A stretch of 64,000 nucleotides of DNA from Petrotoga mobilis SJ95 (GTDB lineage: Bacteria > Thermotogota > Thermotogae > Petrotogales > Petrotogaceae): contig NC_010003.1 in the NCBI RefSeq assembly GCF_000018605.1, positions 968,501 through 1,032,500 of the forward strand. The letters are read 5' to 3'. Positions 3,331 through 42,467 of this stretch are shown one piece after another (the first letter of the stretch is position 1; each line of letters opens with the position of its first letter). The translations under genes were made by a program, and so were the position numbers. Below the pieces are notes generated by a model. It was not told the DNA's origin and ran no database searches. It saw only the letters and a program-made list of their open reading frames with translations.

Positions 3331-4222
3331 TATAATTTCTTTATTAATTAGAGACAGTTTCAGTAGCGCAACTCCTATACTTCTTGCAGCGTTGGGGGGC
3401 ACTTTTACCTATTACGCTAACGTATTCAACATTGCTATGGAAGGTATGATGCTTATCGGGGCTTTCTTCGGAGTTTTGGGAAGCTATCTTTTTCAAAGTT
3501 GGGCAATGGGCATGTTGTTTGCAGTGATTTCCGGAGCTGTTGTTGCCCTGATTTTTTCGGCATTTGCATTGTCCCTTAAAACAGACGAATTCTTGACAGG
3601 AATCGGTATAAATATGCTCGCTTTGGGTGGAACTACGTATCTTTTAAGGAATATTTTCGACGTAAAAGGTGCTTTCATATCTCCAAAGATAGAATCTCTT
3701 CCAACATGGGACATACCCATTTTAAATCAAATTCCTATTCTTTCACAAATATTGAACAATCATCCTTTTATTGTTTACATAACAATACTTTTAGCCTTGT
3801 TGTTAGAAGTTATAATATTTCACACAAAATTCGGTCTCAGACTTAGGGCAACAGGGGAAGATCCAGAAACCACAAGATCTTTAGGCATTAGCCCTAATAA
3901 AATGAAGTTTACCTCTATACTACTTTCAGGTATACTTTCTTCCATGGCTGGAACATACTTATCCTTAGGCTACGTTACCCTTTTCAGCGAAAATATGTCA
4001 AACGGTAGAGGATGGATATCTTTGGCTATAATAATCTTGGTAAAAGGTCGTCCTTTAGGAATACTTTTAATGTCTTTACTGTTCGGATTTTTTGAAAGTG
4101 TGACTTTCACTCTTCAAAACTTCAATATCCCACCACAAATCACTTCCATGTTACCTTATGTAATTACTCTGGTGGTCTTATTCTTATACAGTTCCAACAA
4201 AAGGGAAGAAAAAAATGAGTAA
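3323..4222 (+). CDS. Nucleoside ABC importer permease 2 (NupQ/YufQ-like), probable CTG start
   Basis: Second permease of the importer, about 299 residues. A TTG at 3392 is in frame, but homology-like sequence continues upstream (SSATPILLAALGGTFTYYAN is the normal N-terminal region of NupQ-type permeases). The frame is open back to a TGA at 3314. No ATG, GTG or TTG lies in that stretch. CTG at 3323 has GGTGA six bases upstream and overlaps the stop of the preceding gene, so I propose it as the start. The motif NIAMEGMMLIGAFFG and the ATGEDPETTRSLGI loop support the family. It forms the channel with permease 1. Confidence 0.85.
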   Translation: MTDIISLLIRDSFSSATPILLAALGGTFTYYANVFNIAMEGMMLIGAFFGVLGSYLFQSWAMGMLFAVISGAVVALIFSAFALSLKTDEFLTGIGINMLALGGTTYLLRNIFDVKGAFISPKIESLPTWDIPILNQIPILSQILNNHPFIVYITILLALLLEVIIFHTKFGLRLRATGEDPETTRSLGISPNKMKFTSILLSGILSSMAGTYLSLGYVTLFSENMSNGRGWISLAIIILVKGRPLGILLMSLLFGFFESVTFTLQNFNIPPQITSMLPYVITLVVLFLYSSNKREEKNE

Positions 4223-4250
4223 AATTAAGAAAACAAAAGAAAAATTGAGT

Positions 4251-4300
4251 TAATTGACTATAATTCCGTCTAATCTCCTCTAATCCCCCATAATCAAGTT
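4251..4300 (+). repeat. Phased decamer array 1 (five units, TAAT every 10 bases)
   Basis: Five consecutive 10-base units begin at 4251, 4261, 4271, 4281 and 4291. Each starts with TAAT, followed by T (first two) or C (last three). The rest of the unit is pyrimidine-rich and variable. The period is exactly 10 with no slips. The array ends at the -35 region, 22 bases before the -10 box of the rbsR promoter. A second array of the same form lies at 41311-41360 with the same offset to another LacI-gene promoter. Function unknown; it sits where an UP element or activator sites would be. Confidence 0.8.
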
Positions 4301-4328
4301 TGCAATTTAAATTATTTAGGGATATACT
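4300..4328 (+). promoter_or_regulatory. Promoter of the ribose operon
   Basis: TTGCAA (4300-4305) and TATACT (4323-4328) are separated by 17 bases, a near-consensus sigma70-type promoter. The expected transcription start is near 4335, about 50 bases before the rbsR ATG. The decamer array abuts the -35 box and an operator-like palindrome follows the start point. Confidence 0.75.
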
Positions 4329-4343
4329 ATGAATAAGCAGTTC

Positions 4344-4357
4344 CGAAAACGTTTGCA
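4344..4357. promoter_or_regulatory. LacI-type operator before rbsR
   Basis: CGAAAACGTTTGCA contains the perfect palindrome AAACGTTT with a central CG, the usual form of LacI/RbsR/CcpA-family operators. It lies about 10-20 bases after the predicted transcription start, where a bound repressor would block elongation or initiation. Autoregulation by the adjacent RbsR is the simplest reading. Confidence 0.7.
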
Positions 4358-4383: not shown

Positions 4384-5367
4384 ATGAATAAACAAATAAC
4401 CATTAAAGATATAGCAAAAGAAGCGGGGGTTTCCATATCAACTGTTTCAAGGGTAATAAACAGTTCCTTACCGGTAAAAAAAGAAACTAAAGAAAAAGTT
4501 TTAAAGGCAATTGAAAAGTTGAATTATTATCCCGATTCTCTCGCCAGGAGTTTAAGAGTTGGATACACCAAGACAATAGGTATTATCATTCCAAATATTG
4601 CCAACCCCTTTTTTGCAACTATAGTAAGAGGAGCAGAAGATTTTCTAAGATCAAAAGGCTTTTCTTTGATTATATGCAATTCGGATAACAACATTTCTGA
4701 AGAAAAAAAATTATTTAAAACATTAATCGAAAAGAAAGTCGATGGGATTTTGTACTCAGGTATAGGTGACCATGTTGAAAGTCTCATCAATAGAAATGTA
4801 AAAACCGTTTTCATAGACAGGATCATTAAAAACAATGAATTTTCTTACGTTTGTTCAAACAACTACAATGGAATGCATAAATTACTTGAATATCTATACA
4901 ATTCAAATCACAGAAAATTCATATTTATAAGCGGCAAGAGAGAAATATTCAGTGCAGCTGAAAGATTAAGAGCCTTCCAAGATTTTGCAAATGAATACAA
5001 GATAGATTACAAAATATTTGAGGGAGAGTACACTCATGAATCGGGGATTTCGGTGGCTAAAAAGATTAAAAGTCTTCCCGACGTTGTGGTATGTGCAAAT
5101 GACTTGTTGGCTTATGGAGTTATAGAACATTTTAAAACAAATGGTTTGAAAGTGCCAAAAGATGTAAGCGTCACTGGCTACGACGACATCGCGTTTAGTA
5201 AAATGTTCTCACCACCTTTAACCACTGTGAAACAACCTATGTATGAAATGGGAAAAACGGCCGGAGAAATGATCTTTACAATACTTTCAAAAAAAATCGA
5301 TCACATTCCTGTGAAACAGTTTGAGAACGAGATAATAATTCGAGAAAGTACGAGGGGGAGAAACTAA
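4384..5367 (+). CDS. rbsR: LacI-family ribose operon repressor
   Basis: 327 residues. The N-terminal helix-turn-helix TIKDIAKEAGVSISTVSRVI (from residue 6) and hinge NYYPDSLARSLR are classic LacI. The rest is a periplasmic-binding-like effector domain with SVTGYDDIAFSKMFSPPLTT near the C-terminus. RBS AAGGTGG lies 7 bases before the ATG. It is the first gene of an operon with rbsD, rbsA, rbsC, rbsB and rbsK, so ribose or a ribose derivative is the likely effector. The promoter and operator just upstream imply negative autoregulation of the whole operon. The symbol is assigned from context as well as family. Confidence 0.9.
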   Translation: MNKQITIKDIAKEAGVSISTVSRVINSSLPVKKETKEKVLKAIEKLNYYPDSLARSLRVGYTKTIGIIIPNIANPFFATIVRGAEDFLRSKGFSLIICNSDNNISEEKKLFKTLIEKKVDGILYSGIGDHVESLINRNVKTVFIDRIIKNNEFSYVCSNNYNGMHKLLEYLYNSNHRKFIFISGKREIFSAAERLRAFQDFANEYKIDYKIFEGEYTHESGISVAKKIKSLPDVVVCANDLLAYGVIEHFKTNGLKVPKDVSVTGYDDIAFSKMFSPPLTTVKQPMYEMGKTAGEMIFTILSKKIDHIPVKQFENEIIIRESTRGRN

Positions 5368-40355: not shown

Positions 40356-41163
40356 ATTTTACCACACCTTTTCTACAAAGGTAACAATCTAAGGAAACCC
40401 CAACTGGAAGTGTAGCAATATGAGTGGGAGCATACTCTATATGTACAGAAAAAACTGAAACTCCTTCCTTTAGTCCTTGAAAACCTATATTTAAAGTATT
40501 TAAATCTTTTAAAAGCTCTTCTTCAAAGTCTGCATAAGTAGGATTTTGATTTCTTTCTTTGAAACTTTTTGTCAATGCCAATTTGGATAAAATCATCGCC
40601 TTATCGGAAGTTCCACCTATTCCTATTCCAACATGTAAAGGTGGACAGCCTTTTGCACCGTTTTCTTTCACATGCCCAATTATTACATCTTTTAACTCCT
40701 GAGCTCTGATTGACGGCTTTAACATGAACAAGGCTGAGAGATTTTCACTTCCCCCACCTTTCACCAAAAATTTGATCTCTAAACTCTTCCCAGAAATTTG
40801 GAATATGTGTACCACAGGGGGAGTGTTGTTCTTAGTGTTTTTTCTTTCAAAAAGGGGATCATTCACAACTGAAAATCGAAATGGATTTTCTGCATATACC
40901 TTTTCAACTACCTCATTCAAAGTGGTAAATATTGGTTCTTCAAGTACAACTTCGTTCCCTAAAAAAACAAAGAATTCAACAATACCTGTATCCTGACAGA
41001 GAGGTAATTTTTCAGCTTCTGCAATTTTGTAATTTTCTTTTAGCGCTTGCGAAAATGGACCACTGTATCCGTCTATGTAAGCTTTTACCTCAGGATTTAT
41101 CGTTTCATTAGCCTGTACTATATGGTTTGACAACTTTTCGAATATTTCACGCTTATATATCAT
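40342..41163 (-). CDS. Class I fumarate hydratase, alpha (Fe-S) subunit
   Basis: 273 residues from ATG 41163, the usual size. Cysteines likely to hold the 4Fe-4S cluster are C56 (KLPLCQDTG), C173 (GAKGCPPLHVGIGIGG) and C260 or C263 (DCYLCRKG). VKGGGSENLS is also family-typical. AAAGGAGAT lies before ATG 41163. The frame is open 36 codons further upstream, but that part covers a likely TGCTAAAAT promoter box and has no ribosome site, so it is treated as leader. First gene of the fumarase/malic enzyme operon. Confidence 0.9.
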   Translation of the reverse strand: MIYKREIFEKLSNHIVQANETINPEVKAYIDGYSGPFSQALKENYKIAEAEKLPLCQDTGIVEFFVFLGNEVVLEEPIFTTLNEVVEKVYAENPFRFSVVNDPLFERKNTKNNTPPVVHIFQISGKSLEIKFLVKGGGSENLSALFMLKPSIRAQELKDVIIGHVKENGAKGCPPLHVGIGIGGTSDKAMILSKLALTKSFKERNQNPTYADFEEELLKDLNTLNIGFQGLKEGVSVFSVHIEYAPTHIATLPVGVSLDCYLCRKGVVKFESK

Positions 41164-41310
41164 GCCAATCTCCTTTTTACAATGGATTACTGTCTTAAGC
41201 AATTCTAATTGTTTAATTTCTAAAGCTTCTATTTTATCGACTATTTTTCCATCTTGTTGAAATTTTAGCATAAAAAATGAAAAATTAAGAATTTTTAAGT
41301 TTTTAAGTCC

Positions 41311-41360
41311 TAATCGTCTACAATCGACTTTAATCGTCTATAATCTCATTTAATCGGATT
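41311..41360 (+). repeat. Phased decamer array 2 (five units, YAATC every 10 bases)
   Basis: Units begin at 41311, 41321, 41331, 41341 and 41351. Four start TAATC and one CAATC; units 1 and 3 are identical (TAATCGTCTA). The period is exactly 10. The last unit ends 22 bases before the -10 box (41383) of the second LacI gene, the same distance as in array 1. It also lies between this gene and the divergent fumarase operon, so it could serve both. Confidence 0.8.
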
Positions 41361-41382
41361 TTTATTTTAAGAATATAAGAGT

Positions 41383-41388
41383 TATAAT
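41383..41388 (+). promoter_or_regulatory. -10 box of the second LacI gene
   Basis: TATAAT. The -35 position 17 bases upstream (41360-41365) reads TTTTAT, a poor match, so the decamer array immediately before it may supply activation. Confidence 0.6.
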
Positions 41389-41395
41389 ATGAATA

Positions 41396-41409
41396 GTTAA
41401 GCGGTTAAG
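41396..41409. promoter_or_regulatory. LacI-type operator before the GH94-locus regulator
   Basis: GTTAAGCGGTTAAG is a 14-base near-palindrome with central CG (TTAA arms). A variant, CTTAACCGATTAAG, occurs after the regulator gene at 42483-42496. The site falls about at the transcription start, consistent with autorepression. Confidence 0.7.
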
Positions 41410-41441: not shown

Positions 41442-42467
41442 ATGCCACCAAAGAGAAACAAAAATTCTCGAATAACTATTGAAGATATAGCACAGATCGC
41501 ACAAGTCTCTAAAGCTACTGTTTCTTATGTGATCAACGATAAACCTGGTGTAAGTGAACCAGTTAGAAATAAAATAAAAAATATAATTGAGGAAACTAAT
41601 TATTTCCCTAATTCTGCAGCAAGAGGTTTAGCAGGTGAAAAAACAAATTTTGTTGGTTTAGTTATCCCTGATATTTCTGATATGTTTTATGCAAATATTA
41701 TTAGAGGAGTAGAAAAAACTTTAAATAAAAAAGAATATCTTCTCAATCTATTTACCACACACGCAAGACCAGAAAGAGAGCAACAAGTAGTTCGACTGTT
41801 GAATAAAAGTATGGTTGACGGATTAATTATAATGGCTTATTTTATTACTGATAATTTCATACAATCTTTGAAAGAAAGAGAGATCCCTTTTGTCTTCATC
41901 GATTACCCACCAAAAGATGAAGATATTTATTCCGTAATGGTTGACAACGAAAATGGTGCTTTTGAGGCGACAGAATATTTGATAAAACTTGGGCATAAAA
42001 AAATAGCGTTTTTAGAAGGTCCAGAAGTTGCGTGGGATTCAAAGGCACGATTCAAAGGTTATTTAAAGGCATTAGAAACTCATGGGATCAAATTCAACCC
42101 AGAATTGGTTGAAAATGGTAATTTTACAAAAGAGGAGGGATATACCGCTACAAAAAGGTTGTTAGAAAAAGGAGAAAAATTCACAGCTGTCTTTTCTTCG
42201 AACGATCAAATGGCTATAGGGGCAATAAGGGCTTTAAAAGAAAGTGGGTACAAAATTCCAACAGATGTCTCTATTGTGGGTTTTGATAACATCGAGGCAA
42301 GTTCTATAATAGAACCCCCTCTAACAACTGTTTCACAGCCTATATATGAAATGGGTAAAAAGGCTGTAGATATAATAACAGCTTTGATAAATGGAGAAAC
42401 AATAGAAGAAAAAAGATATATGTTAAAAACAAAATTAATTGAAAGACATTCTTGTACAAAAATATAA
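41442..42467 (+). CDS. LacI-family repressor of the GH94/ABC locus
   Basis: 341 residues. HTH ITIEDIAQIAQVSKATVSYV, hinge NYFPNSAARGLAGEKT, then the sugar-binding core with VGFDNIEASSIIEPPLTTVS near the end. ATTGGAGGA precedes the ATG. Operator-like 14-mers lie in its own promoter and between it and the GH94 gene, so it probably represses itself and the phosphorylase/importer genes, relieved by the imported beta-glucoside or its product. It is a paralogue of the rbsR product at 4384 and shares the decamer-array promoter layout. Confidence 0.9.
   Translation: MPPKRNKNSRITIEDIAQIAQVSKATVSYVINDKPGVSEPVRNKIKNIIEETNYFPNSAARGLAGEKTNFVGLVIPDISDMFYANIIRGVEKTLNKKEYLLNLFTTHARPEREQQVVRLLNKSMVDGLIIMAYFITDNFIQSLKEREIPFVFIDYPPKDEDIYSVMVDNENGAFEATEYLIKLGHKKIAFLEGPEVAWDSKARFKGYLKALETHGIKFNPELVENGNFTKEEGYTATKRLLEKGEKFTAVFSSNDQMAIGAIRALKESGYKIPTDVSIVGFDNIEASSIIEPPLTTVSQPIYEMGKKAVDIITALINGETIEEKRYMLKTKLIERHSCTKI

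Follow-up and report, generated by a model that had tools for sequence, protein, structure and literature searches.

Tandem Operators and Upstream Promoter Elements

Tandem repeat operators as such are known, and by analogy of architecture the closest to the element described here is the set of six OmpR sub-elements of ompF and ompC. At these E. coli and Yersinia promoters, three 20-bp OmpR elements (F1-F2-F3 and C1-C2-C3), each made of two tandem 10-bp sub-elements, offer six such sub-elements to several OmpR molecules (PMC3050692). ArcA, a global metabolic regulator, also reads direct repeats that follow each other in tandem at each helical turn (2-5 per site, at 11-bp spacing), mostly as a repressor whose sites overlap the core promoter (PMC3798270). 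RNA polymerase itself can use upstream DNA through the UP element, whose proximal (-45 to -37) and distal (-58 to -45) subsites are AT-rich and compensate for a weak -35 box (PMC2613000). In sigma-70 promoters of Campylobacter and Helicobacter, a helically periodic upstream signal replaces the -35 box, a diffuse A/T pattern found in ~89% of promoters (PMC3656092, citing Petersen 2003). For Petrotoga mobilis, a survey of spaced motifs gives TTGAC-N18-TATAAT as the sole motif (PMC5217627), and a comparative study of the Thermotogales describes only local sugar regulons, with no global regulatory factor for sugars (PMC3750489).

Here, we analyze a window of 64,000 nucleotides (positions 968501-1032500) from the 2,169,548-bp genome of P. 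mobilis SJ95 (G000), in which arrays of short direct repeats precede two LacI-family genes. The element to which these arrays belong differs from each of the systems above. It has six units and a GA cap in a fixed place, whereas OmpR sites have another sequence and comprise two or three 20-bp elements depending on the promoter. Its spacing is a strict 10 bp instead of the 11 bp of ArcA sites. Two of its units lie where the UP element does (-40 to -58), but with its cap and six specific units it extends to about -116, where the UP element has two AT-rich subsites. Unlike the Campylobacter and Helicobacter signal, the element consists of specific, directional TAWWY units and occurs at a minority of promoters. 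Among tandem operators it stands apart by its fixed eight-turn plan and its cap; a description of the motif in Petrotoga was not found in the literature searched.

Two LacI Promoters With the Same Geometry

The sequence-only reading had described, before the second LacI gene of the window (LacI-2), five decamer units at the same distance from a -10 box as in an array at a paralogous LacI promoter, and both arrays have exactly this layout. At LacI-2, the units TAATC, CAATC, TAATC, TAATC and TAATC start at 41311, 41321, 41331, 41341 and 41351 (41311-41355, forward strand), which places them at -84, -74, -64, -54 and -44. From the end of the last TAATC (41355), 27 bases lead to the -10 box TATAAT (41383-41388, forward strand), or 22 if counted from the end of the 10-bp unit, and the 27-base distance is common to other array promoters. 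The description of this promoter as having almost no -35 box was also accurate, as TTTTAT (41360-41365, at a 17-bp spacer) agrees with TTGACA at 2 of 6 positions.

The five units are only the visible part of the LacI-2 element, which is stretched by degenerate units and a cap to about -116. In register with other promoters, a degenerate first unit, TTTTA, lies at -94 (41301-41305, forward strand), and when 18 array promoters are aligned by their -10 boxes, a cap appears at 41275-41290 of the same strand, with an A-tract at 41280-41284 and GA at 41289-41290 (-106/-105). Petrotoga orthologues of this promoter and that of the sister genus (genome G011) carry a comparable cap. Among five Petrotoga genomes and G011, mean pairwise identity at the LacI-2 promoter is 0.87 in unit columns vs 0.48 in spacer columns (P=5e-6). 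Downstream of the -10 box lies a palindrome, TTAAGCGGTTAA (41397-41408), which we take to be a LacI-type operator palindrome; with a core conserved in seven orthologues, it is probably the auto-operator of LacI-2, apart from the array. The LacI-2 gene itself (41442-42467, forward strand; PF00356, 1.2e-16) follows 3' of the module.

The array at the first LacI gene (array 1) consists of TAATT, TAATT, TAATC, TAATC and TAATC at period 10 (4251-4295, forward strand; unit starts 4251-4291; -84 to -40), with the same 27 or 22 bases before the -10 box TATACT (4323-4328, forward strand). The -10-box alignment places its cap at 4220-4230 on the forward strand with GA at 4229-4230 (-106/-105), and the whole is a match to the module pattern given below with 1 mismatch (G000:C1:972729). 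Below the -10 box, GAAAACGTTTGC (4345-4356) resembles the LacI operator type and is probably a LacI operator; the first LacI-family gene occupies 4384-5367 (forward strand; PF00356, 5.5e-21).

The LacI-2 array had also been said to face a divergent fumarase operon. We found no evidence that it acts on that operon, every module being oriented toward a -10 box on its own strand. For the divergent fumarase subunit, the probable start codon is the ATG at 41163 (MIYKREIF..., with AAAGGAG upstream), instead of 41271 as the longest open reading frame would have it.

A Directional Module With Fixed Helical Phase

The period-10 arrays of LacI-2 and array 1 are far beyond chance. The genome contains 9 runs of three strict YAATC units with a 10-bp period, compared with 0 for the reversed pattern. 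Pair distances were counted in a 464-kb sample made up of the window and 20 further stretches, with 42 kb of noncoding DNA (genome-wide counts combine pattern searches with this sample). Noncoding TAATY pairs at lags of 10, 20 and 30 numbered 28, 19 and 12 against a mean of 4.1 at other lags, which amounts to 59 pairs observed at the three lags vs 12.3 expected (P about 1e-21). The period belongs to TAATY: TAATR (TAATA/TAATG) gave 10 pairs vs 6 expected, and no signal was seen for AAAA, at lags 9 and 11 or in coding DNA, so that curvature alone was rejected as an explanation. In the sister genus (G011) the same lags gave 46, 12 and 16 pairs vs 4.7 (P about 1e-29); the signal was weak in G007 and was not detected by this pair-lag test in the Mesotoga-type genome G026 or the Thermotoga-type genome G094. 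A position-weight-matrix scan with a reversed-sequence control proved a poor test, because TAAT is unchanged on reversal.

The arrays are also in phase with their promoters. In the sample, 10 of the 21 TATAAT-like hexamers that lie 20-69 nt downstream of arrays of at least two units fall at 27, 37, 47, 57 or 67 nt (about 1e-5, binomial with p=0.1), and where the distance is 37 or 47 nt, the gap is often filled by degenerate units. Alignment on the -10 box of 18 distinct promoters, selected for TAATY units and a phased -10 box only, brought out the whole element; the effective number is slightly below 18, because L001 and L033 look orthologous. Conserved columns run from an A-tract around -114 to -111, through A at -107, G at -106, A at -105 and an A/T-rich stretch to -101, to units at -94, -84, -74, -64, -54 and -44, followed by T at -36 to -34 and G at -14. 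Degenerate units such as TAAAC, TATTC and TAAAT widen the unit consensus to TAWWY, and between -114 and -40 the AT fraction rises and falls every 10 bp. The most informative column is the G at -106 (16 of 18 promoters, 89%; 1.41 bits), and the GA cap is an independent feature because it was not among the selection criteria. A first cap model (AAGATTTTT, 1 mismatch) had been too unspecific and showed no phase; the -10-box alignment solved the cap.

A rescan with the array and -10 columns alone, the cap columns being left out, gave 9 noncoding matches in our own sample and 6 each in G011 and G007, and none in Markov shuffles at the same threshold. G stood at -106 in 8 of the 9 (P=5e-6), in all 6 of the G011 matches (P=6e-6) and in 3 of the 6 from G007. 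Most of the own matches and one G011 match belong to the training set; another G011 match is the LacI-2 orthologue, and four are new. The arrays are not simple tandem repeats, as the spacers vary within an array and have diverged between species; at groES, inspection shows the five units kept in Petrotoga and G011 while the spacers have changed. The arrays are therefore almost certainly the promoter-proximal part of one directional, fixed-length cis module of roughly 80 bases, or eight turns. Its helical phase is fixed and its distance usually fixed upstream of a sigma-70-type -10 box, and the -35 box is often weak.

Distribution Across the Thermotogota

The pattern GAWWW-N7-(TAWWY-N5)x5-TAWWY-N27-TANNNT, with up to 3 mismatches, has 26 matches at about 21 distinct places in the P. 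mobilis genome. Four other Petrotogaceae contain 31 (G003), 27 (G011), 16 (G007) and 7 (G009) matches, the Thermotoga-type G094 contains 4 and the Mesotoga-type G026 none. The reversed pattern has 0 matches in every genome searched, and a Markov model predicts about 0 matches even when 5 mismatches are allowed. Of the four G094 modules, three lie directly before genes, the first for a sugar-binding protein, the second for a ROK regulator and the third for an oligopeptide-binding protein, and each of the three has a GA cap after an A-rich stretch; in the third, the -10 box is shifted by a few bases. Other families also have isolated arrays that are followed at 27 or 37 nt by a -10 box (L026, L294 and L296, the last at groES). 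The module thus occurs across the phylum, but it is abundant in Petrotoga and the nearest genera alone.

A horizontally spread or universal motif was considered and rejected, as most of the GTDB-wide matches listed for four TAATC units are simple tandem repeats whose spacers are identical or nearly so. None of the simple tandem repeats checked among them has a -10 box at 27 nt.

Genes Downstream of the Module

In Petrotoga and related bacteria, the module stands at a constant position before dozens of genes for nutrient uptake or for regulators. Array promoters were found before groES-groEL, genes for sugar and peptide ABC binding proteins (including an oligopeptide-binding protein), gcvT, a GH42 beta-galactosidase gene, hutH (histidine/aromatic ammonia-lyase), genes for a zinc dehydrogenase and an alpha/beta hydrolase, three LacI genes and a candidate small RNA, among others. 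Across genera, the targets that recur are sugar and peptide binding proteins, LacI/ROK regulators and groES. Both rRNA operons (L423 and L424) lack a TAATY array; their promoters are of the form TTGACA-N18-TAATAT, with AT-rich DNA upstream. The sampled tRNA promoters have no arrays either. The absence of the module from these strong promoters fits a regulon and not a general strength element.

The proposal that the arrays form a shared regulatory device of paralogous LacI promoters holds for the device, which is promoter-linked with a fixed unit period and a fixed offset from the -10 box, but not for its restriction to LacI genes. An operator or autoregulatory site specific to LacI proteins would account for the module at three LacI promoters here and at LacI promoters in sister genera. 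Yet only about 3 of the 21 distinct modules precede LacI genes, most of the genome's 12 LacI-like matches lack a module, and most modules stand before other genes, groES and solute-binding protein genes included. LacI genes without the array, together with unrelated loci that carry it, are what the sequence-only reading had named as a refutation. The units are, moreover, direct repeats and not palindromes, and each LacI gene of the window has a separate palindrome below its -10 box. A LacI-specific site is accordingly the least probable of the readings considered here; the operators of the LacI proteins are probably ordinary palindromes that lie below the -10 box. At groES, a CIRCE-like repeat is likewise retained below the -10 box.

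The candidate small RNA (G000:C1, about 191940-192060, minus strand; L440, with an orthologue, L459, in G003) is a strongly conserved segment of ~100 nt without an open reading frame. It ends in a GC-rich hairpin and a T run (GGGCCTTATTAAGGCCCTTTTTTT) and has no Rfam match at gathering level. Elsewhere, two near-identical array promoters lie 2.4 kb apart (G000:C1:1712878 and 1715289), which suggests a recent duplication; the former, the one of the two that was checked, stands before an aspartate/glutamate racemase-like gene.

Candidate Readers of the Module

RNA polymerase itself is the main rival to the activator favored below, although we consider it distinctly less probable. The units would then be a lineage-specific UP element, read by two alpha-CTDs together with upstream DNA wrapping and replacing the -35 box. 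The last two units (-44 and -54) do fall in the proximal and distal UP subsites, and the target genes are mixed. Periodic A/T patterns in place of a -35 box have a precedent in Campylobacter (PMC3656092), and T. maritima promoters have raised upstream AT content, mostly with an extended -10 (PMC3636130). The eight alpha-CTD residues checked (equivalents of E. coli 265, 268, 269, 294, 296, 298, 299 and 302) are all conserved, and the Petrotogaceae alpha-CTD, one per genome, has Lys at the equivalents of 264 and 267 and an acidic linker longer than that of E. coli. These changes (V264K and A267K equivalents in the RpoA comparison, L328-L339) occur in all Petrotogaceae checked, other residues being present in E. 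coli and the other aligned Thermotogota; yet module counts vary widely by genus. Six units with a cap at -106 are, furthermore, more than two alpha-CTDs can fill. An A/T-rich UP element would be less specific than strict TAWWY and GA, and the strongest promoters (rRNA and tRNA) do without the module.

If the module were instead intrinsically bent or bendable DNA, in which AT steps and GC-richer steps alternate at 10-bp intervals, wrapping round a nucleoid protein or an Lrp-like octamer, this would fit the 10-bp oscillation of AT content from -114 to -40, the A-tracts at the far end and the fixed eight-turn length. Lrp in E. coli regulates genes of the gcvT, tdh and oligopeptide-binding protein kind, and such Lrp-type targets (gcvT, a tdh-like gene and an oligopeptide binding protein) are among the module genes. 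Bending, however, would take TAATR or A-tracts equally, whereas TAATY alone is periodic; direct repeats are ill-suited to two-fold symmetric Lrp dimers, and GA at -106 is left unexplained. We therefore regard this explanation as unlikely. A direct-repeat reader with a 10-bp period is known in MraZ, and a site for MraZ or a related AbrB-fold ring protein would share that period with the module. MraZ itself is excluded by its absence from the order, with no match in 26 of 26 Petrotogales genomes where 7 of 14 control genomes match, and a ring protein of this kind is highly improbable.

A Proposed Head-to-Tail Activator

The reading that we favor, at a probability of roughly one half, is that the module is the site of one global activator that oligomerizes head to tail. 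Such a candidate protein would bind with one protomer per 10-bp unit, in a row that the GA/A-tract cap would start or bound and that would end next to the -35 position, where it could contact RNA polymerase through sigma region 4 or the alpha-CTD. By this contact, we propose, it would compensate for the poor -35 box. Many promoters would be served by this one factor, those of ABC solute-binding proteins, catabolic enzymes, LacI/ROK sugar regulators and groESL, and each local repressor would add its own operator below.

By analogy, this activator would most likely be a winged-helix response regulator of the OmpR/PhoB type or a protein that acts similarly. As at OmpR/PhoB-type sites, the units are tandem direct repeats about one turn apart that adjoin the -35 region, and four OmpR-type regulators exceed the family cut-off in the P. 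mobilis genome. Against it count the fixed set of six positions, which is less common in this class, the strict 10-bp spacing, compared with the 11 bp of ArcA repeats, and the coincidence of the most proximal units with UP-element positions. At family level, OmpR-type regulators occur in 8 of the 8 genomes searched, including G026, which has no whole-module match; presence of the family therefore neither tracks the module nor points to one regulator. What we observe is the sequence of the module, its period, direction, fixed position, conservation and spread, and its target genes; activation, a single reader protein and its OmpR-like identity are what we infer.

Tentatively, and with less confidence than in the activator itself, we suggest that the Thermotogota possess an overlooked global nutrient/catabolic regulon, in which a candidate activator on the eight-turn module (A-tract, GA cap and six TAWWY units) replaces the role of the -35 box. 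If true, such a regulon would overturn the published conclusion that no global factor takes part in the sugar regulation of Thermotoga. The stereotyped module before sugar and peptide uptake genes, sugar regulators and groESL, in Petrotoga and in a Thermotoga-type genome, makes the question of a global factor directly testable. It also offers a well-delimited natural case in which to test how promoter recognition works when the -35 box is almost absent. Two modules, at 900394-900503 and 2132192-2132301 (G000:C1), lie within about 2 kb of two of the four OmpR-type regulator genes (898436 and 2133492), possibly by coincidence.
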